This document shows positions 4,863 to 17,936 of a stretch of 29,372 nucleotides of DNA, piece after piece. Under the pieces are notes generated by a model. The model did not search any database. It had not been told where the DNA came from and was given only the letters and a program-made list of their open reading frames with translations. Position numbers and translations under genes: made by a program. The DNA comes from a virus: positions 1 to 29,372 of the IMG/VR virus record IMGVR_UViG_3300044800_000186; one strand, written 5' to 3'. Numbering within the stretch: the stretch's first letter is position 1; each line of letters begins with the position of its first letter.

Positions 4863-4868
4863 TCAATA

Positions 4869-4880
4869 GTCGAAAACCAA
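4869..4880 (+). promoter_or_regulatory. Leader motif GTCGAAAACCAA (ssb)
   Basis: This exact 12-mer starts six bases after the exonuclease stop and ends 13 bases before the GTG start of ssb. It recurs exactly at 16957 and 17536, and in variant form at 14727, 15051 and 9063. No Shine-Dalgarno sequence is present here. Confidence 0.55.
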
Positions 4881-4893
4881 CAACAACACTTCC

Positions 4894-5340
4894 GTGAATC
4901 TCAACAAAGTCATTATCGTCGGCCGCGTTACCGCCGACCCGCAAGTCAAGGCGTTGCCGAGCGGCCAGACCGTCGCCAATTTCAGCATTGCCACGAATAG
5001 CGTATGGGTGGATAAGAAGACCGGGCAGAAGAACGAGGCGGTGGAGTTCCACAACATCGTGCTGTGGAATAAAACCGCCGAGGTTGCCGGGCAGTACGTC
5101 AGGAAAGGTTCTCTTCTGCTGGTTGAAGGCCGTCTCCAAACGCGGAGCTGGGAGGACAAGCAGGGAGTAAAGCACTGGCAGACGGAAATCATCGGCGAGC
5201 GCATCCAGCTCGGGCCGAGGCCAGTGGCAGGAGCCGTAACGGCACCGCAGAAATCGCCAGGTGCAGGACCGGCGCCCGCCGAGGGGATTCCTGTGGTCGA
5301 CATCGAGGACAACATCGGGCCGGAAGACCTGCCGTTCTAA
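4894..5340 (+). CDS. ssb: Single-stranded DNA-binding protein
   Basis: This 148-aa protein has an OB-fold over residues 1-108 (MNLNKVIIVGRVTADPQVK, then VEFHNIVLWNKTAEVAGQYV, then GSLLLVEGRLQTRSWED). A Pro/Ala-rich linker leads to an acidic tail ending DNIGPEDLPF, the tip that docks replication and repair partners in bacterial SSBs. The wording of the fold, especially MNLNKV at the start and RSWEDKQG near the end, closely resembles Parcubacteria SSBs. It was probably captured from such a host. The start is GTG at 4894, set by the leader motif 13 bases upstream. It closes the recombination module. Confidence 0.95.
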   Translation: MNLNKVIIVGRVTADPQVKALPSGQTVANFSIATNSVWVDKKTGQKNEAVEFHNIVLWNKTAEVAGQYVRKGSLLLVEGRLQTRSWEDKQGVKHWQTEIIGERIQLGPRPVAGAVTAPQKSPGAGPAPAEGIPVVDIEDNIGPEDLPF

Positions 5341-5346
5341 ACGACC

Positions 5347-5499
5347 ATGAAAAATCTCTCTCTTCTAGGTTTGGCGATGCTGGGTGCCAAGGTGCGGCGG
5401 GGCCTTGAGGAGCACCCGGACCGCGTGGAGCGGCACCCGATAGCAGGCGTGAGCCAAATCGGCCGCGGCAAGAAGCCGACCTACCACTGCCCGAACTGA
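5347..5499 (+). CDS. Small hypothetical protein
   Basis: This 50-aa protein (MKNLSLLGLAMLGAKVRRGL...) starts six bases after the ssb stop and ends five bases before the next start, filling the gap exactly. The N-terminus is mildly hydrophobic and the C-terminus is basic with a single CPN. There is no recognised family. The tight packing is the main support. Confidence 0.5.
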   Translation: MKNLSLLGLAMLGAKVRRGLEEHPDRVERHPIAGVSQIGRGKKPTYHCPN

Positions 5500-5503
5500 A
5501 CCG

Positions 5504-5827
5504 ATGGAAAACAAGAAGAAAAAGGAGAAGTGCCATCGGTGCGGCCGGACGAAGGTTAGGGCAGAGATGTACCACTCGCAATTCGGCTTCACGGCATTCT
5601 GGTTTTGTCGAAACCGGAGAGAATGCGAAAGTCGAAAAATAAAAGCCATGACACCCGCCGGAAAAAAAGTGATACGGGAAATCATCGAGGCGTTACCGGA
5701 ACGGAAACCAACGGGAGGTTTCTATCCGGATGCCGGCTGGCAGATACATGAGGAGGGACGCAAGGGCTTCAACGATTGTCTTTTTAGGGTCCGCAAGATT
5801 CTCTTCTCGCGTCTCAAAAAGAAATGA
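5504..5827 (+). CDS. Zinc-ribbon-like small protein
   Basis: This 107-aa protein begins with a lysine-rich stretch, then CHRCG (10-14) and CRNRREC (35-41), a C-x2-C...C-x5-C arrangement that could hold zinc. The C-terminus is basic (FSRLKKK). It overlaps the next gene by ATGA. Nucleic-acid binding is likely from composition, but no specific role can be given. Confidence 0.65.
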   Translation: MENKKKKEKCHRCGRTKVRAEMYHSQFGFTAFWFCRNRRECESRKIKAMTPAGKKVIREIIEALPERKPTGGFYPDAGWQIHEEGRKGFNDCLFRVRKILFSRLKKK

Positions 5828-6294
5828 CCACCTTCTCCCCCAACGCGCAGCCGACGAGGTGCCCCCATTGCTCCGCATCGCTTAAGTCATTCTGGCACCG
5901 CCTTTCGCCCGGACTAGTATCGATTCTTATTAAAGCGGTTGTTCTAGTCCACTCCCAGAACCAAAACCGCTTCCACTACCGCGACCTCAACCTCAACTAC
6001 TCGGAAGCATCGAACCTTCAAAAACTCCGTTTCCACGCCCTCATCGCGCACGCGGACAAGGAGAATCTCAAGAGCGGATATTGGCTCATCACGGGCAGGG
6101 GGGGGCAGTTCCTCCGGGGAGAGATCGCGGTGCCCGTAGCGGTCAGAACCTTCAGAAACGAGGTGCAGGAACATTCCACGGAGCTGGTCCACATCAACCA
6201 GTTCCGGGGGAAGGTTCCCGAGTTCCAGAGCGAGTTTGCTTCGAGGATCGAAAGGCCGGAGCCGGCCAGAGTGCCGGCGGGGGTGCTGTTCTAG
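5824..6294 (+). CDS. Conserved phage protein with N-terminal zinc knuckle
   Basis: This 156-aa protein has CPHC near the N-terminus (13-16), then a helical core (FHYRDLNLNYSEASNLQKL) and a winged-helix-like stretch (KSGYWLITGRGGQFLRGEIA). It resembles a family I recall from many phages in which a zinc knuckle precedes a winged helix, but the family name is not certain. It starts in an ATGA overlap with the zinc-ribbon gene, so the two are probably translated together. Confidence 0.7.
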   Translation: MTTFSPNAQPTRCPHCSASLKSFWHRLSPGLVSILIKAVVLVHSQNQNRFHYRDLNLNYSEASNLQKLRFHALIAHADKENLKSGYWLITGRGGQFLRGEIAVPVAVRTFRNEVQEHSTELVHINQFRGKVPEFQSEFASRIERPEPARVPAGVLF

Positions 6295-6303
6295 AAATCA
6301 AAG

Positions 6304-7050
6304 ATGACCACACCTGAACTCCTCAAAAAATTATCCTCGAAGTACGCGCCGCCGGCATACGCAATGCTCACGCAGGTACGGAATGGCACCGGGTACCTGA
6401 ACGTGACCAGGACCGCAGATGCGCTCGTGATGAGCCTTTGGCCAAGCAGGGGCCTTGAGCTGATCGGCTTCGAGCTGAAGGTGTCGCGAGCGGACTGGTT
6501 GCGAGAGTTGAAAAATCCCGACAAGGCAGAGGATCTCATAGGATTATGCGATCGCTGGTACATCGTCGCCGTGGACAGCACAATCGTGCAGCTCGACGAG
6601 TTGCCGCCGACGTGGGGGCTTATGACCGCGACCGGTCGTGGCGAAAGCATCAAGACCGTCAAAGAAGCACCACTGCTCAAAGCAAAGGAGTGCGACCGCC
6701 TCTTCCTCGCCAGCATATTTCGCAATGTCACCACGGACATGATCTCGCGCGACCTCATCCAAGCCGAGATCGACGAGGCGCGCGAGAGTCAAAAAGAGAG
6801 CGATAAGTATGCCATCGAACGGGCCGAGCGCGCGCGCGACGAGGTGAAAAAGGCCATCGCGGACTTCGAGAAGATATCGGGCTTGTGCATATCCACGTGG
6901 TCGGAGAGCAACAAGGAACTCGCTCACGCAGTCAAGGACGTCCTCGACGGGAAGTACAAGCACGCGGACGCTGCAATGGTGAAGATCAAGGAAAGCGCGC
7001 TACGTGTCGCCAAGTTCGTCGATGGCGAGATACAGAGCTACCAGCTTTGA
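6304..7050 (+). CDS. MmcB-like PD-(D/E)XK nuclease-fold protein
   Basis: In this 248-aa protein, residues 36-66 (RTADALVMSLWPSRGLELIG, then FELKVSRADW) give D39 and E57-x-K59, the core of a PD-(D/E)XK site. CDRWYIVAV (82-90) is the next core strand. This matches the MmcB-like group of phage and bacterial DNA-repair nucleases. Residues about 140-245 form a long charged helical region. The gene stands 9 bases after its neighbour and is followed by the largest gene-free stretch in the window, so it probably ends the early operon. Confidence 0.7.
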   Translation: MTTPELLKKLSSKYAPPAYAMLTQVRNGTGYLNVTRTADALVMSLWPSRGLELIGFELKVSRADWLRELKNPDKAEDLIGLCDRWYIVAVDSTIVQLDELPPTWGLMTATGRGESIKTVKEAPLLKAKECDRLFLASIFRNVTTDMISRDLIQAEIDEARESQKESDKYAIERAERARDEVKKAIADFEKISGLCISTWSESNKELAHAVKDVLDGKYKHADAAMVKIKESALRVAKFVDGEIQSYQL

Positions 7051-7299
7051 CTATTGCGTAATATGTGCATAGCCGCTGGATTCGCTCGGGAGAATTCGGC
7101 CGGAAGGGAGGAGACGCGCGAAAACCGTCCAAGCACTCTCCCCAAAACCATCCACAGAATCTAGGGACTTATACCCTGTTATCCACAGGCCGGAGGTAGG
7201 AATAGCAAGGCTTCCGGGTCGTGACCCCAGGAAAACGTCGAATCACCTATAACAGTAAGATCTCTAGAGAGTAAAGAATTACGGTTACTAAGCAAACCC
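7051..7299. promoter_or_regulatory. Intergenic region with inverted repeats and DnaA-like boxes
   Basis: This is the longest gene-free stretch in the window. It holds TTATCCACA (7179-7187) inside the inverted repeat CCTGT-TATCC-ACAGG (7175-7189), CCATCCACA (7148-7156), GGGTC-GT-GACCC (7216-7227) and the perfect palindrome TCTCTAGAGA (7261-7270). TATAAC at 7249 could be a -10, but no -35 fits. It looks like a control region, and possibly an origin. Confidence 0.4.
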
Positions 7300-7860
7300 A
7301 TGAGACCCGCACTCCGATACTACGGCGGCAAGTGGCTCCTCGCGCCTTGGATTATTGAACACTTCCCGCCTCACCGCGTCTACGTCGAGCCCTATGCCGG
7401 CGCCGCGAGCGTGCTTCTGCAAAAGCCGAGGTGCTATGCCGAGATCTACAACGACCTCGACGGCGAGGTGGTAAACGTATTCAAGACCTTCCGCGATCAC
7501 GGCAAGGAGATCGAGCGTCTCATCCGCCTCACGCCGTTCGCCCGAGACGAGTTCAATTTCGCCTACCAGCCGGCAGGGGATCCGCTTGAACAAGCTCGCC
7601 GGACGATAATCAAGACCTTCATGGGTTTCGGTTCTGATTCTATCAACCGCAAGAGCGGATTCCGCTGCGACAGTTTCCGATCGGGGACGACGCCCGGCAC
7701 GGACTGGCGGAACTATGCCGACGCGATTCCGTTCATGGTTGATCGGCTCCAGGGCGTCATCATCGAGAACCGCGAGGCAATTGATGTCATCAGGAAAAAC
7801 GACCGTCCGGGTTCGCTTACCTACGCCGAGCAAATTATTCTGAAAATAAATCACCAATGA
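7300..7860 (+). CDS. dam: D12-class DNA adenine methylase, C-terminally truncated
   Basis: This 186-aa protein has the start of a Dam-family N6-adenine methylase: RYYGGKWLLAPWI (6-18) and VYVEPYAGAASVLL (27-40) form the S-adenosylmethionine-binding motif I, and YNDLDGEVVNVF follows. The chain ends DRPGSLTYAEQIILKINHQ, just where the family continues into the catalytic DPPY motif and its C-terminal third. Relatives are about 260-290 aa. No DPPY is encoded downstream in any plus-strand frame up to 8446. It is therefore probably inactive. The last ~25 bases are AT-rich and look like the leader of the next gene, which suggests a deletion junction. Confidence 0.85.
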   Translation: MRPALRYYGGKWLLAPWIIEHFPPHRVYVEPYAGAASVLLQKPRCYAEIYNDLDGEVVNVFKTFRDHGKEIERLIRLTPFARDEFNFAYQPAGDPLEQARRTIIKTFMGFGSDSINRKSGFRCDSFRSGTTPGTDWRNYADAIPFMVDRLQGVIIENREAIDVIRKNDRPGSLTYAEQIILKINHQ

Positions 7861-7979
7861 AGCACGTCATCAAACTCAACCGCGAAACTGAAATCGATCT
7901 GCCGAAGCTCATACGGAATCCTATGGAACTTCCACGCCGAGCTTTTGAGCGAGTACAGCGATGTCATTTTTTAGCTTGA
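7857..7979 (+). pseudogene. Truncated gene remnant after the methylase
   Basis: An ATG in an ATGA junction with the methylase opens a 40-aa frame (MKHVIKLNRETEIDLPKLIR...). The first ~20 codons fit phage-like coding sequence. The rest runs antisense into the AT-richer leftward gene and looks random. It may be the 5' end of a gene whose remainder was replaced when the leftward gene arrived. Confidence 0.35.
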
Positions 7980-8394
7980 CCATACTTTCGTCATAGTGAT
8001 GGAGACTCTTAAGCTGCCCATAGATAACAGTGAGCTGGCCGAGAACGAATGCAAGCGGTATGGAACCAAATATTACGAATGGCATCGACGAGGGCAGGTT
8101 GGTGAGGCGGATAAGGAAATAGAAACTTGCGGCGCAGGATATCATGGATAATAAAAAAAGCCCTATTAGGATAATTGATGCGGTCCATAGTGCCCAGAGG
8201 AGCAAAGCGTACGAGTCGCCATTCATCCGTTCGAGCCATCGAACTTGACGATGGAGATCTTCAAGTCGCAAGTGTTTCCATTTTTTGACAGTTAAGCCGG
8301 GCAGCGCCCTTATTTGCCGAGGAAACAGAGTGGCAACTAGCGTGATGGTAAAAAGAGCAGTGGTGTAGATGACTTCCGGCTTCGTTAACCACAT
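7921..8394 (-). CDS. Leftward membrane protein (probable moron)
   Basis: This 157-aa protein has hydrophobic helices near residues 8-26, 66-92 and 102-125. A charged stretch with KKWKHLRLEDLHRQVRWLER lies between the first two, and the tail is soluble. A TTG at 8430 is in frame, but ATG 8394 is preferred, with AAGG seven bases upstream. The gene runs against its neighbours and is clearly richer in A+T. It sits beside a truncated methylase and a truncated ORF. These are signs of recent acquisition. Exclusion or lysogenic conversion is possible but not shown; no family is recognised. Confidence 0.65.
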   Translation of the reverse strand: MWLTKPEVIYTTALFTITLVATLFPRQIRALPGLTVKKWKHLRLEDLHRQVRWLERMNGDSYALLLWALWTASIILIGLFLLSMISCAASFYFLIRLTNLPSSMPFVIFGSIPLAFVLGQLTVIYGQLKSLHHYDESMVKLKNDIAVLAQKLGVEVP

Positions 8395-8445
8395 GAGCAA
8401 CCTTGTACTGCAAATCCTATTAGTATTCAATTAAAGAAAAGGAGA

Positions 8446-8922
8446 ATGAAACGGACACCACTACAATCCGAGGGTAAAAGCCCGACGGCGCTCTGCAAGA
8501 AAAGGATACAAGCACTCCTCCGAGAGATTGTGATCCTCCGCGACGGCGGGTGCGTGCTCCGCCACTTCCAGCACATCGCGGGCCGATGCTTCAACACGAC
8601 CCCGACGAAGGACGGCCACCTCATCCTCCAGTTCGACCACCTCAACAGTAGGGCATTCAGCGTATCCTACGCCGACACACGAAACGGCGTGTGTGCTTGT
8701 GAGGGCCACCACGGGACGTGGAAACTGCGGAACCCCGTCGTCTACGTCGCGCTCGTGAGGGAATACATCCTCGCAACGACTGGCGGAGCCAGGTGGTGGG
8801 CAAAGGTCGAGGAGTTCCTGCATGATCGCTCCGTGCACCACATGACCCGCTGGGACTGGGAGAAACAGGAGCTGGCCTTGAAACAGGAACTCCGCGAACT
8901 CCAAGATGAAAAAGCGGCCTAA
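8446..8922 (+). CDS. HNH/NinG-like zinc-binding nuclease candidate
   Basis: This 158-aa protein has AAGGAG four bases upstream of the start. C36 and C48 lie in RDGGCVLRHF...GRCFN; LQFDHLNSRAFSVSY (61-75, D64-H65-N67) looks like the first strand of an HNH site; CACEGHHGTWK (83-93) supplies further Cys/His ligands. This resembles NinG/Rap-type phage recombination nucleases. The spacing of the metal ligands is not the textbook HNH order, so activity is inferred. It overlaps the next small zinc-finger gene by 17 bases. Confidence 0.65.
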   Translation: MKRTPLQSEGKSPTALCKKRIQALLREIVILRDGGCVLRHFQHIAGRCFNTTPTKDGHLILQFDHLNSRAFSVSYADTRNGVCACEGHHGTWKLRNPVVYVALVREYILATTGGARWWAKVEEFLHDRSVHHMTRWDWEKQELALKQELRELQDEKAA

Positions 8923-9049
8923 AGAAAAATACTACCGCTGCAAGGTCTGCGGCGCGGTCGGAAACTGGAAAGAGTTTATCGAACGGGGCCGCTGCCACCT
9001 GCTCGGACAGAAGCTTGCCAAGATTCCGGGAAAGCGTAGAATGAAGTAA
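8906..9049 (+). CDS. Small basic zinc-finger-like protein
   Basis: This 47-aa protein is rich in Lys/Arg, with CKVCG (12-16) and CH (30-31), which could form a C-x2-C...C-H zinc site. It overlaps the end of the HNH-like gene, which suggests coupled translation. It probably binds nucleic acid; no family is recognised. Confidence 0.5.
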   Translation: MKKRPKEKYYRCKVCGAVGNWKEFIERGRCHLLGQKLAKIPGKRRMK

Positions 9050-9055
9050 ATCTTC

Positions 9056-9080
9056 CCCGCCGGTCGAGGCGGGAAACCAA
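9056..9080 (+). promoter_or_regulatory. Hairpin plus AAACCAA leader of the secreted protein
   Basis: CCCGCC (9056-9061) pairs with GGCGGG (9068-9073) around GGTCGA. AAACCAA (9074-9080) follows and ends 11 bases before the ATG at 9092. No T-run follows, so this is not a terminator. GTCGA plus AAACCAA is a split version of the 12-mer leader motif. Confidence 0.45.
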
Positions 9081-9091
9081 AAACAAAATCT

Positions 9092-9775
9092 ATGAAAAAA
9101 CTCATTGTCGCAGTATTGCTTATCACCGTTCTGTTCACCGGAACCGTCCGGGCGCAGACGGTTGATGTGCAGACGCAGTATCAGACGCTCTTGGTTCAGC
9201 TGATTAACCTGCTCATGCAGCAGGTGTCGGCTCTCCAGGCCCAGCTCACAGAGCTGCAAGCGTCGGTTCAAACGTTGAGCACTCCGGTTCAGCCGCCGAG
9301 CACACCTCCGGCTTTGACAACGGGAACGACCGTAGCGCCGGCGCCCACGAATACGGCAACGAGCACGCCCGAGGTTCCCAAGACGGTGACGGTGAAGCAG
9401 ATTGATATAACCCATCTGCAGATCGTGAACGACACCGGCGTCGCGGTACGCATTAAGAACATCGCGGCGAGTTCGACGCTTGCGGATATGAACATTTCCG
9501 GCTCTTCGATATGGTATCCGCGAAGCTTTAAGGGAATGGACGCGACCTACAACATCTTCGACTGTAGCGGTCTGGGGAGCCTTGGAACCTACCCGAGCTA
9601 CGGCAATGCGAACACCGATCCCTGCGTGCGAAGGGACGAGAATCTTCCGAGGAACGAATTGCAGCCCGGCGAAACCATGACCCTCCGATTCTACGACCCG
9701 GTGGACATTACAAATGTTACGGGAACCATCGTCGAGGTCGGGACCGGAAAGGATGTGCAGTTCAGCGGACTGTAA
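9092..9775 (+). CDS. Secreted coiled-coil surface protein, Parcubacteria type
   Basis: This 227-aa protein has a signal peptide at residues 1-21 (K-K, hydrophobic core, cleavage after VRA). A Leu/Gln-rich helix follows (LVQLINLLMQQVSALQAQLT), then a Pro/Thr/Ser linker (65-105) and a beta-rich C-terminal domain (110-227). Two cysteines in that domain could pair (FDCSG and DPCVR). The L-x2-Q-x2-A-L-Q-A-Q-L helix after a signal peptide is common in Parcubacteria secreted proteins. The gene has a hairpin leader and lies in the accessory region, so it may be a host-derived cargo gene that alters the cell surface. It could instead be a virion or adhesion protein. Confidence 0.75.
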   Translation: MKKLIVAVLLITVLFTGTVRAQTVDVQTQYQTLLVQLINLLMQQVSALQAQLTELQASVQTLSTPVQPPSTPPALTTGTTVAPAPTNTATSTPEVPKTVTVKQIDITHLQIVNDTGVAVRIKNIAASSTLADMNISGSSIWYPRSFKGMDATYNIFDCSGLGSLGTYPSYGNANTDPCVRRDENLPRNELQPGETMTLRFYDPVDITNVTGTIVEVGTGKDVQFSGL

Positions 9776-9969
9776 TGCAGGAAATCTTCCCCCATCTGCA
9801 CGAGGTCAGTTGGATCGGCATCATCACTGATATTTCTGCTGAGTTCGACCCGAAGAAGAGTTGCATCGTGCAGGAGTGCGTGATGTGCGGATGGAGGAGG
9901 AATGTGGCAGCGAAAGAGGAAGGAGTCGAAATCACCCCGCAACTGCAAGGCAATGTCCAGGAAGTTTAA
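9775..9969 (+). CDS. Small Cys-containing protein
   Basis: This 64-aa protein overlaps the preceding stop by one base (TAATG). It contains CIVQECVMCGWRR (C-x4-C-x2-C), which could be part of a zinc site. It overlaps the following gene by 17 bases. The tight packing supports it; the function is unknown. Confidence 0.5.
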   Translation: MQEIFPHLHEVSWIGIITDISAEFDPKKSCIVQECVMCGWRRNVAAKEEGVEITPQLQGNVQEV

Positions 9970-10147
9970 CCGAGCCCGCCAGATCGACTTCAAAGTCCGC
10001 CAGGTCCTCGAAAGTCCCGAGGCAATCTACTACCTCACCATGCAGATCATCCGGCCGAAACCAAAGCTCATGCCCCGCTTCGTCTGGAAATTATTCCTCT
10101 TGGTCGTGATGGCGCCGAGCACGAGATATAAAACGCTCACGAAGTAA
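9953..10147 (+). CDS. Small basic protein
   Basis: This 64-aa protein is strongly basic (MSRKFNRARQIDFKVRQVLE) with a short hydrophobic stretch (FVWKLFLLVVMA, 44-55). The start at 9953 is chosen over an in-frame ATG at 9902 to limit overlap. It ends in a TAATG overlap with the HExxH protein. No family is recognised. Confidence 0.5.
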   Translation: MSRKFNRARQIDFKVRQVLESPEAIYYLTMQIIRPKPKLMPRFVWKLFLLVVMAPSTRYKTLTK

Positions 10148-10629
10148 TGAAGAAAAAGAAAACGAAGGACAAAGGTCCGCGCCCGAAGGCGTATAAGAAA
10201 TATATCAGCGGAATCTGCGACGAACTTCGCACGTTCTTCTTTTGCGGGGAATACCGGATGGACATCGTGTACGTCGATGAGATCCCGCTCCGTGGCGGGT
10301 TCAAGGACCAGACCTCAAATAGTTTGGCGGCGGACATCAAAATCGACCCGACATACCTGAACTTCACGATGCGGGTATCCGATTTCGTTCTCAGAAAGTG
10401 GGAAGAAAAAAAGTATCGGGAAATCGCGGAGATGTTAGTGCACGAATTCACGCATCTACTCACGGAGCCACTCTATCTGCTCGCCCTCCGGGGAACATCC
10501 GAGAGCCAGCGTGACGAGCTTGAAGATGTCCGCGAGCGCCAGACCGAGCGCACCAAGAACGTGCTGATGTGCTACCTGCCAGAGAGTTTTTATAAGGCCG
10601 CGAAGATTAAGGGAAAGTTTGAAAAGTGA
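10147..10629 (+). CDS. HExxH metallopeptidase-like protein
   Basis: This 160-aa protein contains MLVHEFTHLL, with HEFTH at 99-103, the zinc-binding motif of gluzincin/SprT-like peptidases. EDVRERQTERTKNVL (126-140) supplies acidic residues that could be the third ligand. There is no signal peptide, and the N-terminus is basic. It lies one overlap away from the terminase small subunit, a position where phages often carry a small HExxH protein. Activity is inferred; prohead maturation or host targeting are both possible. Confidence 0.65.
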   Translation: MKKKKTKDKGPRPKAYKKYISGICDELRTFFFCGEYRMDIVYVDEIPLRGGFKDQTSNSLAADIKIDPTYLNFTMRVSDFVLRKWEEKKYREIAEMLVHEFTHLLTEPLYLLALRGTSESQRDELEDVRERQTERTKNVLMCYLPESFYKAAKIKGKFEK

Positions 10630-11048
10630 TGGCGAAGATTCAGACCGACAAGCAGAGAAAGCTCGTGAAGCTCCTCTCGGAAAATCTAGGACTGAAGAAG
10701 CCCAAGACGATGCTTCAGATGATGCTCGAAGCGGGCTACGAAGAGAGCACAGCACACCAACAGACATCCATCCTCGTTGGAATCCGGGAAGAGCTTGATC
10801 CCATCGTAAAGAAACTTATTGCTCACCGGGAAAGGATTCTTACGCAACTCGCGAAGAAACTCCCCCAAGCAAAATACCGCGATCTGGTCGATGGTCTCGA
10901 CAAGGTGACGAAGAACATCCAGCTCCTATCCGGCAAACCCACCGAACGGCCGAACAACGTGATCACCGGCCTTGAAAATCTCACCGACAAACAACTCGAT
11001 GAATTCATCAAGAGCCGAAAAAGTGGAACTGGCTCGGGCACTCATTGA
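10629..11048 (+). CDS. terS: Terminase small subunit
   Basis: This 139-aa protein has an N-terminal helix-turn-helix-like stretch (KLLSENLGLKKPKTMLQMML, then EAGYEESTAHQQT), typical of DNA-recognition domains in phage terminase small subunits. A coiled central region (DPIVKKLIAHRERILTQLAK) is the probable oligomerisation core, and LTDKQLDEFIKSR is near the C-terminus. It starts in TGATG overlap with the HExxH gene and overlaps terL by about 50 bases. It binds viral DNA at packaging start. Confidence 0.8.
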   Translation: MAKIQTDKQRKLVKLLSENLGLKKPKTMLQMMLEAGYEESTAHQQTSILVGIREELDPIVKKLIAHRERILTQLAKKLPQAKYRDLVDGLDKVTKNIQLLSGKPTERPNNVITGLENLTDKQLDEFIKSRKSGTGSGTH

Positions 11049-12453
11049 GAGGGATAAGCGGGTTTCCGTGAATCCCCTCAAGTACGCCGGCCAGCACGCC
11101 AAACAGAAAGAAGCTTCCGCCTGCCGGAAACTTATGCGCGCCCTTTTCTGGGGCAACCGGGTCGGCAAGACCGAATGGGGTGCACAGGAGGTCGCGAGAG
11201 TAGCCCTCGGGGAGCACGGATGGATCCCGCCGGGCGAGATCTGGGCATGTACCACGTCCTACGACGACCAAAAGGACACGACGCAGAAGAAGCTCGAAGG
11301 GTACATTCCGAAACACAGAATCCTCGACACGACGTGGCTTCGAAAGGGAATCGTTAAGGAGTGGAAGATCGATGCCGGCGGCGGGCGCATTTCAAAAATA
11401 GCATTCAAGAGTTACGAGCAGGGTAGGGAAAAGTTCCAGGGTGCGGGAAAGGTATTGATCTGGTTCGATGAAGAACCGCCCAAGGATATTTTCGACGAAT
11501 GTTCGGTCCGTGAAGAAGCCGGCATTCCTCTTTTCATCATTCTCACAATGACCCCGGTGCTCGGCATGACGTGGGTCTACAACGAAATTTATTTGAATAC
11601 GTCGAATCCGGATCTCTTTATTTCGGAAGCGGAGTGGAACGACAACCCGTGGCTCATGGAGGATCAGAAGGAAGCGATGCGCCGGAGACTTACACCGCAA
11701 GCCCTGCTTGTCCGCGAGAAGGGAAAGTTCGTGAAGCAGACCGGGCTTGTGGCTTCGTGGTTCAATCGGCAAATCCACGTTGTCGAAATCAAGGAGATGC
11801 CTTTTGGAGATACGTTGTTCGGCCTGGACTTCGGATTCTCGAATCCGGCCGCGGGACTCTATGCCCGTCTGGACCGGGGGGAAAACCTGTGGATCTTCGA
11901 CGGATTCTACCGCCGGCAGATGACCACGCCGCAGATAAAAAGCCTCATGGACGTGAAGGAGCAGGGACTTGGCCGCGTGAACAGGGTAGGAGATTCAGCC
12001 CAAGCGAGTGATATCAAGCAGCTCAACGATCTCGGAAAAGAAATAAAAGGCGTCGAGAAAGAGTCGGGAACGTCGAAGGAAAACTGGGACGAGTTCCGGG
12101 CTCGGCTCATGGAGGAGCGGGGAAGGATACAGGAAGGAACCGGCAAGCCGAAGATATTCATCTCCTCAAAGCTCGTGGACATTGACGACGACCCGACGAG
12201 CAAGAGCTACGGAATACCGGTGAATTTCCTTGTCCGGGAACTGGAGAATCTCAAGTGGGAGGAGGTCAAAACGGAGCTTGGAGTGGCCGCAAAGCCGATC
12301 TGGGGCAAGCAGCAGAAGCACGCGATCGACGCGTTAAGCTATATCTTGGCCAGCATCGCGAAACCGTTGCTCAAAGGCCCGCTTCCGGCGCCTACCGTAG
12401 GCCTCGTTAAACCTTATCCAGGTATGCCCGGATGGGGAAATAGACACCCATGA
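10999..12453 (+). CDS. terL: Terminase large subunit
   Basis: This 484-aa protein is the packaging motor and headful nuclease. Walker A is GNRVGKT (52-58) and Walker B is VLIWFDEE (152-159), with TMTP at about 183-186 as the coupling motif. The RNase H-like nuclease carries LFGLDFGF (D277), GDSAQASD (D332) and KHAIDALSY (D444). All motifs are intact. The frame is open to a TTG at 10972, but ATG 10999 is preferred to reduce overlap with terS. It ends in ATGA overlap with the next small gene. Confidence 0.95.
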   Translation: MNSSRAEKVELARALIERDKRVSVNPLKYAGQHAKQKEASACRKLMRALFWGNRVGKTEWGAQEVARVALGEHGWIPPGEIWACTTSYDDQKDTTQKKLEGYIPKHRILDTTWLRKGIVKEWKIDAGGGRISKIAFKSYEQGREKFQGAGKVLIWFDEEPPKDIFDECSVREEAGIPLFIILTMTPVLGMTWVYNEIYLNTSNPDLFISEAEWNDNPWLMEDQKEAMRRRLTPQALLVREKGKFVKQTGLVASWFNRQIHVVEIKEMPFGDTLFGLDFGFSNPAAGLYARLDRGENLWIFDGFYRRQMTTPQIKSLMDVKEQGLGRVNRVGDSAQASDIKQLNDLGKEIKGVEKESGTSKENWDEFRARLMEERGRIQEGTGKPKIFISSKLVDIDDDPTSKSYGIPVNFLVRELENLKWEEVKTELGVAAKPIWGKQQKHAIDALSYILASIAKPLLKGPLPAPTVGLVKPYPGMPGWGNRHP

Positions 12454-12626
12454 ACCTGTCCGAGAACGAGAAAAAGCTTATCGAAACCGTCCGGGCCATG
12501 AAACCCTTGAGCCGGCTTGTGGTCGAGAAAAAGGAGGTCAAAAACCCGACCGAGTTCCGGCTTGAGTTATGCACAGTCGAGTACCTTCCGAAAGATTTGA
12601 CACGGCGTGAGGGAGGTTTAGAATAA
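12450..12626 (+). CDS. Small protein between terminase and portal
   Basis: This 58-aa charged protein (MNLSENEKKLIETVRAMKPL) starts in an ATGA overlap with terL and ends inside the -10 of the portal promoter. A helix followed by short strands is likely. No family is recognised. Small ORFs in this place are common in podovirus-like genomes. Confidence 0.6.
   Translation: MNLSENEKKLIETVRAMKPLSRLVVEKKEVKNPTEFRLELCTVEYLPKDLTRREGGLE
12597..12624 (+). promoter_or_regulatory. Sigma70-like promoter of the portal/head operon
   Basis: TTGACA (12597-12602), 16 bp, then TAGAAT (12619-12624), the best -10 of the set. The predicted start is near 12631, giving an 89-base leader before the portal ATG. It overlaps the end of the 58-aa gene. 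It is the likely promoter for head genes. Confidence 0.8.
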
Positions 12627-12630
12627 AGGC

Positions 12631-12719
12631 AATAGCGCGGCGCGACCGCGAATCGGGCCACAGCCCGGCAGCACCGAGCGGCTCATGGGAAAAATCCCGT
12701 GGGCTGTTTCGTTTCAGAG
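12631..12719 (+). promoter_or_regulatory. Structured, attenuator-like leader of the portal gene
   Basis: Hairpin A is CGGGC-CACA-GCCCG (12654-12667). Hairpin B is GCTCATGGGA (12681-12690) with TCCCGTGGGC (12695-12704), 10 bp with two G-U pairs and an AAAA loop, followed by TGTTTCGTTTC. CAGCCC (12661-12666) can also pair with GGGCTG (12701-12706), which would break both. Hairpin B resembles an intrinsic terminator lying between promoter and gene. Confidence 0.55.
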
Positions 12720-14414
12720 ATGATCCCCGTCCTCACCATCAACGAGCTTCAGAAGAACACCGAATCGGATCGGCTGTTCCGGATGCGCCGTCACGACCAG
12801 TGGACGACGAACTACGAATTGTACCGGGACACGGTCATCATCAACCGATTGACCCAGCGGCAATCCGTGAACGTGCCCTACGTGAAAGGCACGCTCAAAA
12901 CGTATCTCAAGAAGACAGCGCCGCCGGATCTCGAATTCGAGGATAAGAACAACGACGGCCAGAGCGAGCTTGAGTTCAACGCATACTGGCAGGATACCTT
13001 CGACCGGCTGAAGATCAAGGTTCTCGATTACGTGGATCGAAAACAGGAATTCCTTTACGGCCGGAGTTTTATGAAACTCAACATCGTGGACGGCCGCGTG
13101 GTGATGGAGGTCATCGACCCGCAGGATGTTTTAGTTGAGCGCTACGTGAACCCGTGGGACATCGAAACCGCCAGACATCTAACCCACATCGGTATCTATC
13201 GTTCCATTGACCAGGTCGAGCAGAACCCGCTCTACGACAATGAGGCAATTCTCCGGCTCAAAGCTTTCTTCGGGACCAAAGCGGGATTGATCCTTTCTGC
13301 GGAAAATACTCTGGCTCTTACGGACCGCGCGAAGCGGATGCTCGACCTTGGTGTGCCGGACGCGCTGCTTCCGATCATCAGCGGAACCATCGTCGAGTTG
13401 AACGAGCACCAGGTGAAGGTTTGGGACCCGGAAAAGAAACGTCTCGTCGTAGTTGTCGCTGTCACTTGCATGAGCGAGATCCTGATGCAGAAGCCGATGG
13501 AGGAACTGTTGGGCGTTAACTTCTACATTCTCTGTTCATGGGCAGGTGACGTTGAGCGCACGGACTGGTGGAGCGACGGGATGGCCGACAGCGTCCGGCA
13601 GTTGAACCAAGTCGCTAATGCGCGCGTTTCGCAGAAAGTCGAGAACGGCACGCTCGCGAACTTCGGGATGAACTTTTATAACACGACGGTCAGCAAGGAA
13701 TGGTCGCCGGTTGGTTATGAACCCGCTCCGTTCGGATTCTACGGATTTCCAGGTGATCCGAACAAGGATCTGCGTCGCGTGGAGATCCCCGAGATGCGGG
13801 ATTTCTACGACGAACTCGGATGGTACGAGAAGCAGATCGAGAGCGTGAGCGCCACGACCTCGGCCGAGAAGGGCGAGGAGGCGCAAACCAAGAACCAGAC
13901 ACTCGGAGAATTCCAAGCTCTTTTGAAACAAGCCGACGAGCGGCTTGAATCTTCGACGCCGTTCCGCGAGCAGTACTGGAAAGACATCGGCGAAAAATGG
14001 TTTGCTCTTGTGGACGCGAACGCGTCTGACCTGGCTGAAGTCCCGCTCTACAAGAAAAGCCAGTCCGGGAAGTTGTTCGAGAAGAAGGTCCAGCCGGCAA
14101 AATCCAAAAAGGGCTACGTGGTCAAGGTGAATTCAAAAGCCAACCGTGAAGCCGACGACCTGAAGATGCTGCAGAAGCTGAACGTGGCCAAGACCGAGTT
14201 CCCGATGAACGCGCCCCTGCAGCGCATCATGAAGAAAAAGACCATCGACTGGTTGCGCCTCACGCCGGAGGAGACGCAGGAGGTGATGGACTTCGACGAC
14301 CAGCAGCCGGCGATGCCTACCCCGCCCGTTCCAGGCGGACCGACACCCGGTGCTCCAACTCCCGCCGGGTCGATGATGATACCGGCACGGAAACCACAAC
14401 CCGCCTATGCTTAG
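12720..14414 (+). CDS. Portal protein
   Basis: This 564-aa protein forms the dodecameric entry ring of the capsid. It begins MIPVLTINELQKNTESDRLF with a long N-terminal helical part. A central region contains DVLVERYVNPWDIETARHLT and SDGMADSVRQLNQVANARVS (the conserved stem/wing region of podovirus portals). A helical segment (about 365-460) and a Pro/Gly-rich C-terminal tail (about 535-564) follow. It lies directly after terL, in the usual order. The start is ATG 12720 with no Shine-Dalgarno sequence. A GTG at 12699 is in frame but lies inside hairpin B. It overlaps the next gene by 8 bases. Confidence 0.85.
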   Translation: MIPVLTINELQKNTESDRLFRMRRHDQWTTNYELYRDTVIINRLTQRQSVNVPYVKGTLKTYLKKTAPPDLEFEDKNNDGQSELEFNAYWQDTFDRLKIKVLDYVDRKQEFLYGRSFMKLNIVDGRVVMEVIDPQDVLVERYVNPWDIETARHLTHIGIYRSIDQVEQNPLYDNEAILRLKAFFGTKAGLILSAENTLALTDRAKRMLDLGVPDALLPIISGTIVELNEHQVKVWDPEKKRLVVVVAVTCMSEILMQKPMEELLGVNFYILCSWAGDVERTDWWSDGMADSVRQLNQVANARVSQKVENGTLANFGMNFYNTTVSKEWSPVGYEPAPFGFYGFPGDPNKDLRRVEIPEMRDFYDELGWYEKQIESVSATTSAEKGEEAQTKNQTLGEFQALLKQADERLESSTPFREQYWKDIGEKWFALVDANASDLAEVPLYKKSQSGKLFEKKVQPAKSKKGYVVKVNSKANREADDLKMLQKLNVAKTEFPMNAPLQRIMKKKTIDWLRLTPEETQEVMDFDDQQPAMPTPPVPGGPTPGAPTPAGSMMIPARKPQPAYA

Positions 14415-14724
14415 CGAACTGCTCTACAAACTCGGTTTGAAATATGAAGACCTCAAGCCCGAGGAGCGGAAGGTCTACGAGCAATGGAGCCGGGTCCTCA
14501 CGAAACCCGACACGACGATCGCCGATTTGAAGCAGCTGCTTCCGCAGGAGCTTGAACGATCCCGGAAAGAACAGAACGACTATACGAACGACACGAAGAA
14601 GGATTTATTCTACAAGGCCTACATCAGAATCCTTGAGAATCTCACGCTGATGATCACCGCCCCCTCCGAGCAGCGCGAGAACCTCAAAAACCAATTGCGA
14701 CAGCAATTCAAGATAGACATCTAA
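14407..14724 (+). CDS. Hypothetical helical protein after portal
   Basis: This 105-aa, charged, all-helical protein (MLSELLYKLGLKYEDLKPEE) has an 8-base overlap with portal. It has no membrane helix or cysteine pattern. Position suggests a minor head or assembly protein. Family not recognised. Confidence 0.65.
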   Translation: MLSELLYKLGLKYEDLKPEERKVYEQWSRVLTKPDTTIADLKQLLPQELERSRKEQNDYTNDTKKDLFYKAYIRILENLTLMITAPSEQRENLKNQLRQQFKIDI

Positions 14725-14726
14725 AG

Positions 14727-14737
14727 GTCGAAGCCAA
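14727..14737 (+). promoter_or_regulatory. Leader motif variant GTCGAAGCCAA
   Basis: It begins two bases after the stop of the preceding gene and ends 13 bases before ATG 14751. The flanking AAAGGTCGAA is shared with the copy at 16957. Confidence 0.4.
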
Positions 14738-14750
14738 CGCACAGGAACAA

Positions 14751-15041
14751 ATGGATTTTCAAGAAAAGTTAGCCGAGATCGTGGCGAAGGAGTCCGCGGC
14801 CCTCACTCCTGGGGACATCGAATTCTTGAGGGCACGGCGCTCCTACCTCACGCCGGAACAGCTGGAAACCTACAAGGCGCAACTCAGCGAATCCGAGGAC
14901 CAGGAAGAGAAGAACCTTGAGGCGATGACGCGCTCTGAGCTGGAGGAAGTCGCCATCTCGCTTGGTCTCGACCCCGCTGAGTTCTCCACGAAGTCGAAAC
15001 TCATCGCCGCCATCGAGGCGAAGCAGGCAGAGCAGCAGTAG
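14751..15041 (+). CDS. HeH/SAP-like domain protein
   Basis: This 96-aa protein has a helical N-terminal half. Residues 56-91 (LEAMTRSELEEVAISLGLDP, then AEFSTKSKLIAAIEA) fit the helix-extended-helix fold of SAP/HeH/Rho-N domains, which bind DNA or occur on phage head proteins. It lies between portal and scaffold, so a head-completion or DNA-condensing role is plausible. An AGGA seven bases upstream is a weak Shine-Dalgarno. Confidence 0.65.
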   Translation: MDFQEKLAEIVAKESAALTPGDIEFLRARRSYLTPEQLETYKAQLSESEDQEEKNLEAMTRSELEEVAISLGLDPAEFSTKSKLIAAIEAKQAEQQ

Positions 15042-15050
15042 TCTTTACAA

Positions 15051-15062
15051 GTCGTAAACCAA
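15051..15062 (+). promoter_or_regulatory. Leader motif variant GTCGTAAACCAA
   Basis: One mismatch from GTCGAAAACCAA. It lies nine bases after the upstream stop but 35 bases before the scaffold ATG, farther than the other copies. Confidence 0.4.
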
Positions 15063-15097
15063 CCGCCCTAACCCCTTAACTGCGGACGGGCACAACA

Positions 15098-15760
15098 ATG
15101 GCTGAACCAATCCAAACCCCGCAAGGGACGGACCCAGTGCCACCGGTCACTGAACCAACACCGCCGGCGCCAAGCGATCCGACGCCCCCCGTCGATTACG
15201 AGAAGAAATTCGCGGAATCGACCACGGAAAACCAGATCATTTCCGCAAGGAATAAAGAACTGGAGGGTCGCATCAGGGAATTGACAAATCAACCGACCGA
15301 CTCGGAACTCCGGGCAGCATTCCCGGATTGGGAGTTCATGGACGAGAACGCGAAACGTTCGAGCCGCATGGCCTTTGAAGCCAAGCGGGCAACTGAAAAG
15401 TTGCAACTCGAACGGGAGCAGGAGCGCGCCGAGCAGACCTGGAACCGCGACCTTGAAGCGGCAATCACCGCTCATCCCGAATTGGATGGCAAGGAACGCG
15501 AGTTCAAGGAATTTGCATCGCAGACAACCCACAAGGGTGCGCCGATGCAGGTGCTCGTCGATGCCTTCTTGCACAAGATCGGCTCCGTCCCGCCTCCCAA
15601 TCCCACTCCAAAGCAGGGCTTAGAACCCGGCAGCGGAGGCCCGCGTGGACCCGAGAAGCCAAAAGTATTGAGCGGTGAGGAATTGAAACTCCTCCGTAAG
15701 ACCGACGAAAAGGCCTACGTGGAGTACATCAAGCATCACGACACTACCGCTGATCTTTAG
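15098..15760 (+). CDS. Capsid scaffolding protein
   Basis: This 220-aa protein has a Pro/Thr-rich N-terminus (1-32), a long charged coiled-coil centre (35-125, including EGRIRELTNQ and EKLQLEREQERAEQTWNRDL) and a Pro/Gly linker. A basic-acidic C-terminus (LSGEELKLLRKTDEKAYVEY) follows, typical of the coat-binding end of scaffolds. It is immediately upstream of the major capsid protein. It would be released or degraded during maturation. Confidence 0.75.
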   Translation: MAEPIQTPQGTDPVPPVTEPTPPAPSDPTPPVDYEKKFAESTTENQIISARNKELEGRIRELTNQPTDSELRAAFPDWEFMDENAKRSSRMAFEAKRATEKLQLEREQERAEQTWNRDLEAAITAHPELDGKEREFKEFASQTTHKGAPMQVLVDAFLHKIGSVPPPNPTPKQGLEPGSGGPRGPEKPKVLSGEELKLLRKTDEKAYVEYIKHHDTTADL

Positions 15761-15773
15761 GCAAGTCGCGGTC

Positions 15774-15788
15774 GGGGTAACAGACCCC
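15774..15788 (+). promoter_or_regulatory. Hairpin at the ribosome-binding position of the capsid gene
   Basis: GGGGT-AACAG-ACCCC ends four bases before the ATG of the major capsid gene, exactly where a Shine-Dalgarno would be. No Shine-Dalgarno is present. GGTC/GACC (15770-15773 and 15783-15786) offers an alternative pairing. Confidence 0.4.
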
Positions 15789-15792
15789 ACAC

Positions 15793-16890
15793 ATGGCAGC
15801 ATACGCAACGAAACTAGCTGAAGCGTTCTCCTCAACGGTGACACGCGAGCTTTACGCGCGCGCTATCTTTGACGACGTGGTGAATCGCGATTACGAAGGC
15901 GACATCAACGGCGTCGGGAGCATCTGCAACATCCTGAGCTTCGATAAGCTCTCGGAAAAGGACTACACGGGTGCGAATTTGACGGTGGACGATCTGACGG
16001 AATCGAACGGCCAGCTTGTCATCGACAAGAACAAGTCGTTCTACTTCCGGGTCAAGAGCATCGACAAGTTCAAGTCCTACATCAAGGACCCGCGCCCCGT
16101 CCTCAAGGAGCAGAGCTTCCAGGAGCGGAAGAAGAACATCGACCTCTACGTTCTTGGCAAGTACGCGAGCGTCGCCGCGGGCAACCGCGTCGGCACGGAC
16201 TACACGACCGGGACGGTGACCGTTACGGTCACGACCGGAGCTGTAGCTGGCTCGGGTACCACCTTCACGTCGGCGATGGTTGGACGCGGCTTCAAAGCCG
16301 CCGGCCACACCTCGTGGTACCGCGTGAAGAGCTACGCATCAGCGACTTCCATCGTCATCGAGGACGACAAGGACGACATCGCATCCGCCTACACGGGCGG
16401 CGCGATCAGCGGAGGCGCGACCTACACGGTTGAGGCGAACACCCCCGTGGCCATCACGCGAGCCTTGCTCGCCGGCTACATCGGGCAGATCAAGCAGAAG
16501 ATGGACACGCTTGAAATCCCGGAGGAAGACCGTATTCTCGTTTTCCCCACGGAGGTCGCGAACCTGATTCCGGGCGCTACGGGCATTCTTCTGAATGTTC
16601 CTGCCGCCTACGAGGAACTGGTGAAGAAAGGCTTCATCACGCAACTCGCCGGATTCAAGATCTTCTCGTCCGCCCGTCTCTCGGGAGACAACACGAACGG
16701 CTACCACGCTCTCGCTATCCAGCGGAACTGGCAAACGTTCGCGGACAAGGTCTTGGAAGCGGAGGTCGAAGAAACCCTCATCGGAAACTTCGGCATCGCC
16801 TACAAGGACCTGTACGTCTACGGTTCGAAGGTCAAGGACAACCGCCGCAAGTTTGCAGCGGAATTGTTCTGCACCGGCAGCTGGGCATAG
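15793..16890 (+). CDS. Major capsid protein with inserted beta domain
   Basis: This 365-aa HK97-fold-type capsid protein is recognised from position after scaffold and from its features. These are an N-arm (AYATKLAEAF), an E-loop-like stretch (ANLTVDDLTESNGQLVIDKN), a spine helix (QSFQERKKNIDLYVLGKYAS), and a C-terminal P/A-domain region (EEDRILVFPTEVANLI and NGYHALAIQRNWQTFADKVL). Residues 136-216 form a Thr/Val/Gly-rich beta insertion (TGTVTVTVTTGAVAGSGTTF onward) that interrupts the core and probably projects from the capsid surface. The core is about 285 aa without it. It is the most abundant virion protein by role. Confidence 0.85.
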   Translation: MAAYATKLAEAFSSTVTRELYARAIFDDVVNRDYEGDINGVGSICNILSFDKLSEKDYTGANLTVDDLTESNGQLVIDKNKSFYFRVKSIDKFKSYIKDPRPVLKEQSFQERKKNIDLYVLGKYASVAAGNRVGTDYTTGTVTVTVTTGAVAGSGTTFTSAMVGRGFKAAGHTSWYRVKSYASATSIVIEDDKDDIASAYTGGAISGGATYTVEANTPVAITRALLAGYIGQIKQKMDTLEIPEEDRILVFPTEVANLIPGATGILLNVPAAYEELVKKGFITQLAGFKIFSSARLSGDNTNGYHALAIQRNWQTFADKVLEAEVEETLIGNFGIAYKDLYVYGSKVKDNRRKFAAELFCTGSWA

Positions 16891-16893
16891 TCC

Positions 16894-16931
16894 GGGCTCA
16901 CTCTGTGCTCCGTGTTCTAAGCGCGGAGCCC
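16894..16931 (+). promoter_or_regulatory. Hairpin after the capsid gene
   Basis: GGGCTC (16894-16899) can pair with GAGCCC (16926-16931), or GCTCCG (16907-16912) with CGGAGC (16924-16929). No T-run follows. It may set mRNA stability or uncouple translation between capsid and the next gene. Confidence 0.4.
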
Positions 16932-16956
16932 AGGGATGAACCCAGAGGTTCCAAAG

Positions 16957-16968
16957 GTCGAAAACCAA
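16957..16968 (+). promoter_or_regulatory. Leader motif GTCGAAAACCAA (decoration gene)
   Basis: Exact 12-mer, ending 12 bases before ATG 16981. It lies just downstream of a hairpin, as at 17536 and 9063. Confidence 0.6.
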
Positions 16969-16980
16969 TTCAACTCACTA

Positions 16981-17478
16981 ATGGCAAGAACCAAATCAAT
17001 CCTCTTCCCGAACACGGAGACCGAACTGTCTGCTTTGTTTGATAAGCTCCAGCGGGCGGCGACGAACCGCTTGCTCACGACCGGTGCCCTCGCGATCCAC
17101 GGCGCGGCTTCGGCTTTGGCCGCGTACGCGAACACGATCTACTTCCAGATCGACGGTAAGGTCTACACCAAAGCCGCCGCTGACTGCACTGCCCTGGCAG
17201 GCTCGGTCACGCACGCGAAGTTCAACGTGTTCGTGTTCACCGTGAACGCCGCAGGGACACTTAAAACCACGATGGGCACGGAAGCGGCCACTCTCGGAGC
17301 GGTTGTCTTTCCCGCCATCACGGACGGCGAGATCGCCATCGGCTTCGTGGTCATCAATCCGACCGGCACCGGCAACTTCGTGGGCGGCACGACCCAGCTG
17401 GATGACGCCACCGTTGTCCCGACCGCAGCCTATGTCGATACCGTCGGCACGTTCCTTCCCGAGCTTGCAACGCTCTAG
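16981..17478 (+). CDS. Head decoration / minor structural protein
   Basis: This 165-aa protein is rich in Ala/Thr/Gly/Val. Core strands include NTIYFQIDGKVYTKAAADCT, NVFVFTVNAAGTLKTTMGTE, GAVVFPAITDGEIAIGFVVI and NPTGTGNFVGGTTQLDDATV. I recall this protein type next to capsid genes in many podovirus-like genomes; decoration or head-fibre is the best guess. An in-frame ATG at 16936 exists, but the leader motif would then be inside the gene, so 16981 is chosen. Confidence 0.7.
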   Translation: MARTKSILFPNTETELSALFDKLQRAATNRLLTTGALAIHGAASALAAYANTIYFQIDGKVYTKAAADCTALAGSVTHAKFNVFVFTVNAAGTLKTTMGTEAATLGAVVFPAITDGEIAIGFVVINPTGTGNFVGGTTQLDDATVVPTAAYVDTVGTFLPELATL

Positions 17479-17533
17479 TCCCCTCGCTCTGTCCTCGGAC
17501 AGGGCAGGGACGAGGGGAGTAGGAAGCCCCTCG
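17479..17533 (+). promoter_or_regulatory. Long hairpin with competing pairing
   Basis: TCCCCTCG (17479-17486) pairs with CGAGGGGA (17511-17518), enclosing CTGTCC-TC-GGACAG (17489-17502). A second CCCCTCG (17527-17533) could replace the first strand. It starts at the stop codon of the decoration gene and precedes a leader motif. No T-run follows. Confidence 0.5.
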
Positions 17534-17535
17534 CA

Positions 17536-17547
17536 GTCGAAAACCAA
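17536..17547 (+). promoter_or_regulatory. Leader motif GTCGAAAACCAA (small basic gene)
   Basis: Exact 12-mer ending 12 bases before the GTG at 17560. The constant spacing supports that GTG as the start codon. Confidence 0.6.
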
Positions 17548-17750: not shown

Positions 17751-17936
17751 ATGCCCACACCACAAGAAATGACCGTTCCTGCCACGGGCAGGAAGATGAC
17801 CATCGAGGCCAAGATCATCCGCGCCGACGGACGGAAGGAACGTCTCGGCACGGTCGTGGGTGGAACATTCCTTCAAAAGGTCGAGAGCTATTTACGAATC
17901 AAGTTTGCAAATCTGAAACAATGGCTACGGTACTAA
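17751..17936 (+). CDS. Small hypothetical protein
   Basis: This 61-aa basic protein (MPTPQEMTVPATGRKMTIEA) is probably a short beta sheet plus a C-terminal helix. It is packed between genes: two bases after the previous stop and 16 bases overlapping the next. No family is recognised. Confidence 0.55.
   Translation: MPTPQEMTVPATGRKMTIEAKIIRADGRKERLGTVVGGTFLQKVESYLRIKFANLKQWLRY

Follow-up and report, generated by a model that had tools for sequence, protein, structure and literature searches.

A shared word about 20 bases before phage start codons suggests an undescribed translation switch

The window analyzed here is the whole of a 29.4-kb virus record (29,372 nt; IMG/VR IMGVR_UViG_3300044800_000186), and the element in question is a short word that recurs in the leaders of its genes, including those for ssb, an HeH-like protein, a scaffold, a decoration-like protein, a secreted pilin-like protein, and a small basic protein. 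The first-pass annotation had described this word as the 12-mer GTCGAAAACCAA, and its account of three exact copies, three variants, and the gaps to the start codons was confirmed in the window. The exact copies lay on the + strand at positions 4869, 16957, and 17536, and none was found on the - strand; a Markov/dinucleotide model gave an expectation of 0.006 copies in the window (P(>=3) = 3e-8 for the word). GTCGAAAACCAA was the sole non-repetitive 12-mer with three window copies, the other 12-mer with three being a simple repeat. Variant copies at 14727, 15051, and 9062-9080 matched the earlier description, and the gaps from motif end to start codon were 13 nt for ssb and the HeH gene, 12 nt for the decoration and small basic protein genes, 11 nt for the secreted protein gene, and 35 nt for the scaffold gene.

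All window features described below lie on the + strand. The full core, AAAGGTCG, was present in two copies, and GTCG or GGTCG alone was kept in four. One full core (14723..14730) was separated by a 20-nt spacer from the ATG of the HeH-like protein at 14751 and overlapped the TAA that ends the preceding gene. The other (16953..16960), overlapping the exact copy at 16957, stood 20 nt before the ATG of the decoration-like protein at 16981. A longer open reading frame (ORF) begins at 16936, and the copy at 16957 is nevertheless intergenic because the decoration start at 16981 (MARTKS...) is kept in relatives. The core variant AGTCGAAAACCAA occurred before ssb (4868..4880; GTG 4894) and before the small basic protein (17535..17547; GTG 17560), whose leader in the relative L004 is identical to the window at the core. 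A further variant, AGTCGTAAACCAA (15050..15062), lay upstream of a scaffold-leader structure and the scaffold ATG at 15098, with counterparts GTCGATAAACCAA in L004 and GTCGTAAACC in L042, L046, and L032. The 'split' copy (9056..9073) was a perfect 6-bp hairpin with the loop GGTCGA (CCCGCC-GGTCGA-GGCGGG), followed by AAACCAAAAACAAAATCT and the ATG of the secreted pilin-like protein at 9092. The leader of the major capsid gene (ATG 15793) had a weak seventh copy, AAGTCG (15763..15768), followed by a short hairpin (15770-15786); orthologues carried AAGGCG or AGTCG and a ACGGTTGG hairpin there. Between the capsid stop and the decoration core lay a G+C-rich inverted repeat (16894..16931), and between the decoration stop and the copy at 17535 lay a hairpin (17480..17517). 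A hairpin before the motif thus holds for some copies, such as that at 17535, but is not general, the HeH copies overlapping the upstream stop. Gene y also has a conserved copy 37 nt before it, at 17876, but this was not counted, as it lies inside the coding sequence of the upstream gene and is kept with its protein.

Capsid, decoration, and portal relatives were drawn from virus contigs, and the leaders of orthologous genes were aligned. The invariant part proved to be AAAGGTCG ((AAAG)GTCG, with the core GTCG), not the 12-mer; the AAACCAA or "ACCAA" tail drifted among relatives and is mainly A/C-rich, G-poor spacer. The order downstream was AAAGGTCG, a G-poor A/C/T spacer of ~20 nt (16-27), and the ATG, with a spacer G content of 4.7%. 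The word was retained in 18 orthologous leaders of the decoration gene and in 11 of the HeH gene (including L004, L006, L009, L031, L034, L046, and L148), in the latter overlapping the stop codon of the upstream gene (TAAAGGTCG) without a hairpin. The 16-27 nt spacing was found in 92% of 63 non-redundant leaders, with a mode of 20-21, and a Shine-Dalgarno-like 4-mer occurred in 2 of the 63, as against 18% of other gapped leaders, which supports the earlier proposal of a start-associated leader element used without a Shine-Dalgarno sequence.

When all 8-mers were compared across 23 related contigs, AAAGGTCG ranked first for start-codon association: an ATG-led ORF lay 14-32 nt downstream in 66 of 89 copies, as against 12% of positions overall, and sense copies outnumbered antisense copies by 89 to 18. 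The nominal p for this association, 1e-40, is only indicative, since the relatives share ancestry. The motif was thus present in relatives' leaders and enriched there over other positions, the two points on which the first-pass annotation could have failed. The association is independently supported because the word precedes unrelated gene families (decoration, HeH, a small post-portal gene, hydrophobic 55-75-aa proteins, and early small proteins), because it tracks gene orientation, a leftward pilin-like gene carrying an own-strand copy in four phages, and because it persists among relatives of 33% to 61% GC, including the AT-rich L234 and L235 (33-38% GC).

Outside this clade the pattern was not found. 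The word was unbiased in 169 loci from elsewhere in the wider family, a 1.9-Mb set that covers almost the entire family: 29 copies were sense and 31 antisense. The spaced pattern was counted 286 times in 21 genomes of the host class, compared with 304 for a reverse-complement control word, both strands summed, giving no excess that would point to use of the word by host genes. Three unrelated phage isolates with Acidobacteriota hosts, Tunturi 1, 3, and 4 (PMC11924767), had no start-linked copies in 50 kb of each, where their leaders were of the Shine-Dalgarno kind, so the word is not common to all Acidobacteriota phages. No Rfam match above the gathering score was obtained.

Evidence on the host came from a relative at 65% capsid identity, carried by a 156-kb contig from the metagenome-assembled genome (MAG) of a member of the Thermoanaerobaculia (Acidobacteriota). 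A 21-bp direct repeat (att) occurs there at 11532 and 51609, the second copy at a tRNA-Asp gene, and an integrase-like ORF, identified by eye, lies beside it (50379-51548); the repeats and the adjacent ORF together delimit a 40-kb prophage (contig C103 of G020, 11532-51629; L190-L192) in tRNA-Asp(GTC) of the Thermoanaerobaculia chromosome. Another relative was in an Acidobacteriaceae MAG, and more distant ones were in Patescibacteria MAGs. The Parcubacteria host implied in the first-pass annotation was therefore unsupported and is rejected as the primary reading; the prophage is the best host evidence and makes Acidobacteriota the putative host group for the window itself.

In addition to its linear form, the word was found as a hairpin loop, with GGTCGA in leaders displayed on at least eight different stems, including GCCA/TGGC, AAACG/CGTTT, GCCG/CGGC, CCCGCC/GGCGGG, and GTAGT/ACTAC and TCAGCC/GGCTGA, the last two being two other sites of one phage. 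In portal leaders, GGTCGA occupied the loop of a short hairpin directly downstream of a sigma70-like promoter, in the forms GCCA-AGGTCGA-TGGC, AAACG-AGGTCGAA-CGTTT, GCCG-AGGTCGAA-CGGC, and TATAC-AGGTCGAAGC-GTATA. Stems of at least four pairs surrounded 14 of 52 leader sites, compared with 4 of 71 other non-AAA GGTCGA sites (Fisher p 0.001). Stems that change around a constant loop point to recognition in RNA, the reverse of what a dimeric DNA operator would be expected to show.

From features seen directly in the sequence (the word, its position, orientation, and spacing, the G-poor spacer, the clade restriction, and the loop form on changing stems), we infer action on mRNA, action on translation, and recognition by a phage-encoded factor, either protein or RNA. 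An mRNA element at translation initiation is favored by the position, the orientation, the G-poor spacer, and the loop form, and a phage-encoded factor by the absence of host use and by the GC range of the clade (33-61%); such a reader would be the simplest account of a clade restriction that extends across hosts of differing composition. As the most likely explanation of the motif, with about an even chance, we propose an RNA leader element for translation that is specific to these phages and tied to start codons. GGUCG would be exposed as single-stranded RNA, whether within the linear AAAGGUCG or at the tip of a short hairpin, and be followed directly by a G-poor, unstructured leader that runs to the start codon; its role would be to promote or control translation initiation of selected genes without a Shine-Dalgarno sequence. 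More tentatively, the clade may have largely dropped Shine-Dalgarno sequences for this gene set in favor of an initiation system of its own, with a phage-encoded factor binding GGUCG, whether linear or looped, and bringing ribosomes to the G-poor leader ~20 nt downstream, in hosts that differ widely in base composition. A shared AAAGGUCG ~20 bases before starts, replacing the usual ribosome-binding signal, suggests a translation switch not previously described.

Several observations weigh against this interpretation. No trans-acting factor was identified, the spacing is more variable than for Shine-Dalgarno sequences, and the window variants retain only GTCG. The copies are related by descent, so the p-values are inflated, and the hairpin contrast between leader and non-leader sites is dominated by portal leaders of common ancestry. 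Predicted unpairedness of the word was 0.51, compared with 0.46 in shuffled flanks, and resembled that of non-start copies, making it a weak argument. The first five bases, AAAGG, are also able to base-pair with the 3'-end CCUUU of 16S rRNA, although at the wrong distance.

The best rival is RNA processing or stability, which we consider rather unlikely: a phage or host endonuclease would cut at or near AAAGGUCG, generating new 5' ends ~20 nt before the start, and the upstream hairpin would shield the 3' end of the preceding (capsid) mRNA. In its favor, the decoration leaders of type-A (motif-bearing) genomes mostly have a G+C-rich hairpin of differing sequence, followed by AAAGGTCG, and this hairpin is not an intrinsic terminator, since the U-run is missing; type-B (motif-free) genomes (L027, L028, L035, L038, L044, and L062) have a true intrinsic terminator with a U-run between capsid and decoration. 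The unstructured spacer agrees with processing as well, and the loop form would expose a single-stranded site. However, the HeH word overlaps the upstream stop (TAAAGGTCG) without a hairpin, where a cut would endanger the upstream message, and the portal leaders begin at the promoter, so that a cut in the loop would destroy the 5' hairpin with no clear gain.

A DNA operator or stop site, with a repressor acting on many transcription-aligned asymmetric sites, is an improbable reading. Stoperators, the model for it, are DNA sites for a repressor and have no fixed distance to start codons. Those of L5 and other cluster A mycobacteriophages are asymmetric repeats aligned with transcription in short intergenic gaps (PMC3203893). 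The present word resembles them as a repeated asymmetric site in short intergenic gaps, aligned with genes and transcription, in a clade of which one member is a tRNA-integrated prophage. Unlike stoperators, it keeps a fixed relation to starts, the distance being constrained to the ATG and not to promoters, and most copies lie within operons, some overlapping stop codons; this spacing and the G-poor composition of the spacer point to mRNA, and the constant loop with changing arms is the opposite of a dimer operator.

An unusual Shine-Dalgarno or standby site, in which AAAGG pairing with 16S CCUUU is followed by sliding of the 30S subunit over the G-poor spacer, has a similarly low probability. 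The Thermoanaerobaculia 16S rRNA ends in the usual anti-Shine-Dalgarno (GGATCACCTCCTTTCT), with which AAAGG can form 5 bp. Pairing is possible for AAAGG only: the equally conserved UCG stays unpaired, and the window and loop forms retain GTCG while losing AAAGG, so the complementarity to host 16S suggested earlier was not supported over the conserved word. AAAGG also lies 19-30 nt upstream of the start and not at the ~5-10 nt of a Shine-Dalgarno sequence. Another 16S match, TCGACCT in h17, occurred in one genome and was not conserved in three other members of the class. Finally, the target of a phage-encoded small RNA or a kissing loop is very unlikely: a loop-displayed hexamer with UCGA, as seen here, is typical of loop-loop contacts, but a search of 13 relatives gave no conserved intergenic CGACCTT, the matches being scattered or complements of leftward leaders.

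With an RNA leader element for translation as the preferred reading, the closest known kind is the start-associated sequences (SAS) of cluster K mycobacteriophages and the ESAS repeats that go with them. These are short asymmetric words found in one orientation directly upstream of the starts of many unrelated phage genes; they are absent from the host, have no known function, and sometimes lie beside an inverted repeat, and their authors argue for a translational role (PMC3203893). SAS is GGGATAGGAGCCC, a word with AGGAG in it that is found 3-7 nt before the start of non-structural genes only, and an RNA hairpin was considered unlikely for the ESAS repeats (PMC3203893). The present motif is likewise a repeated asymmetric word at starts, in one orientation and before many gene families. 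It does not belong to that family: unlike SAS, it has a different word without a Shine-Dalgarno core, lies ~20 nt upstream, and precedes structural and early genes, and unlike ESAS it has a hairpin-loop form on changing stems. CsrA/RsmA sites, with GGA in hairpin loops near start codons, are recognized in RNA. The motif resembles these in presenting a G-rich core in a small loop or single strand of leaders, but its core is GGUCG and not GGA, and the window proteins scanned included none of the CsrA/RsmA type.

A separate, strongly covarying element lies beside the scaffold copy. Across the wider family, scaffold leaders contain an RNA of the form GCC-N-AAC-[stem]-loop-[stem]-AC-GGC, typically no more than ~15 nt from the start (e.g., L005:9246-9272, L231:3331-3362, and L021:2596-2624, among many others). 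In 27 aligned sequences, all four inner pairs changed on both sides, with 33 double changes compared with 9.7 in shuffles (0/500), and slid versions collapsed. Searching 1.4 Mb with a covariance model gave 81 matches, every one on the strand of the gene; scaffold starts accounted for 48 and capsid leaders for 20, together 68. The RNA lies ~33 nt before capsid genes, and a second copy sometimes falls within the first scaffold codons. In the window, a degenerate copy (GCCC-TAAC-CCC...CGG-AC-GGGC; 15065..15091), 6 nt before the scaffold ATG, was not recovered by the model at E<=1, and a better-scoring copy (15109..15135; E 0.07) lies inside scaffold codons 4-13. The RNA had no Rfam match, and a collection scan with its fixed form returned 21 stretches, many of them probably due to chance by a rough estimate. 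The RNA may coordinate scaffold and capsid synthesis and is a candidate operator.

Other features of these leaders and genomes were recorded. Type-A capsid leaders (window 15763-15786) have CGACGGTTGG...CCAAC in common, a further conserved hairpin-like leader. DnaA-box-like sequences (TTATCCCCA, TTATCCACA, and TTATGCACA) lie just 5' of portal sigma70-like promoters (TTTACA/TTGCAT - CATAAT/TACACT), with examples in portal and scaffold leaders at L045 3525-3616, L039 3350-3441, and L007 5387-5477; scaffold promoters have a similar DnaA-like box upstream and contain a TTGCC..ATCGA..GGCAA inverted repeat. Genes for secreted, pilin-like coiled proteins (QALxxELxxLExQLAQMQ) run rightward in the window (9092-9775) and leftward in G002, G007, G008, and G010, and both have a GGTCG leader, their homology being judged by eye only. 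A 64-aa protein (window 9953-10147) was present in 12 of 14 type-A and 0 of 3 type-B genomes; it had no Pfam match, looks partly hydrophobic, and is not claimed as the trans factor.

Start-associated sequences were described in 2011 in one mycobacteriophage cluster without a mechanism (PMC3203893). The motif reported here would add an independent example from phages unrelated to that cluster. Its word and distance differ, it also occurs as an RNA loop, and it lacks a Shine-Dalgarno core, so that extended ribosome binding and a dedicated factor are separable by experiment. It may also provide a handle on gene control in the phages of Acidobacteriota, which are abundant in soil and poorly known.

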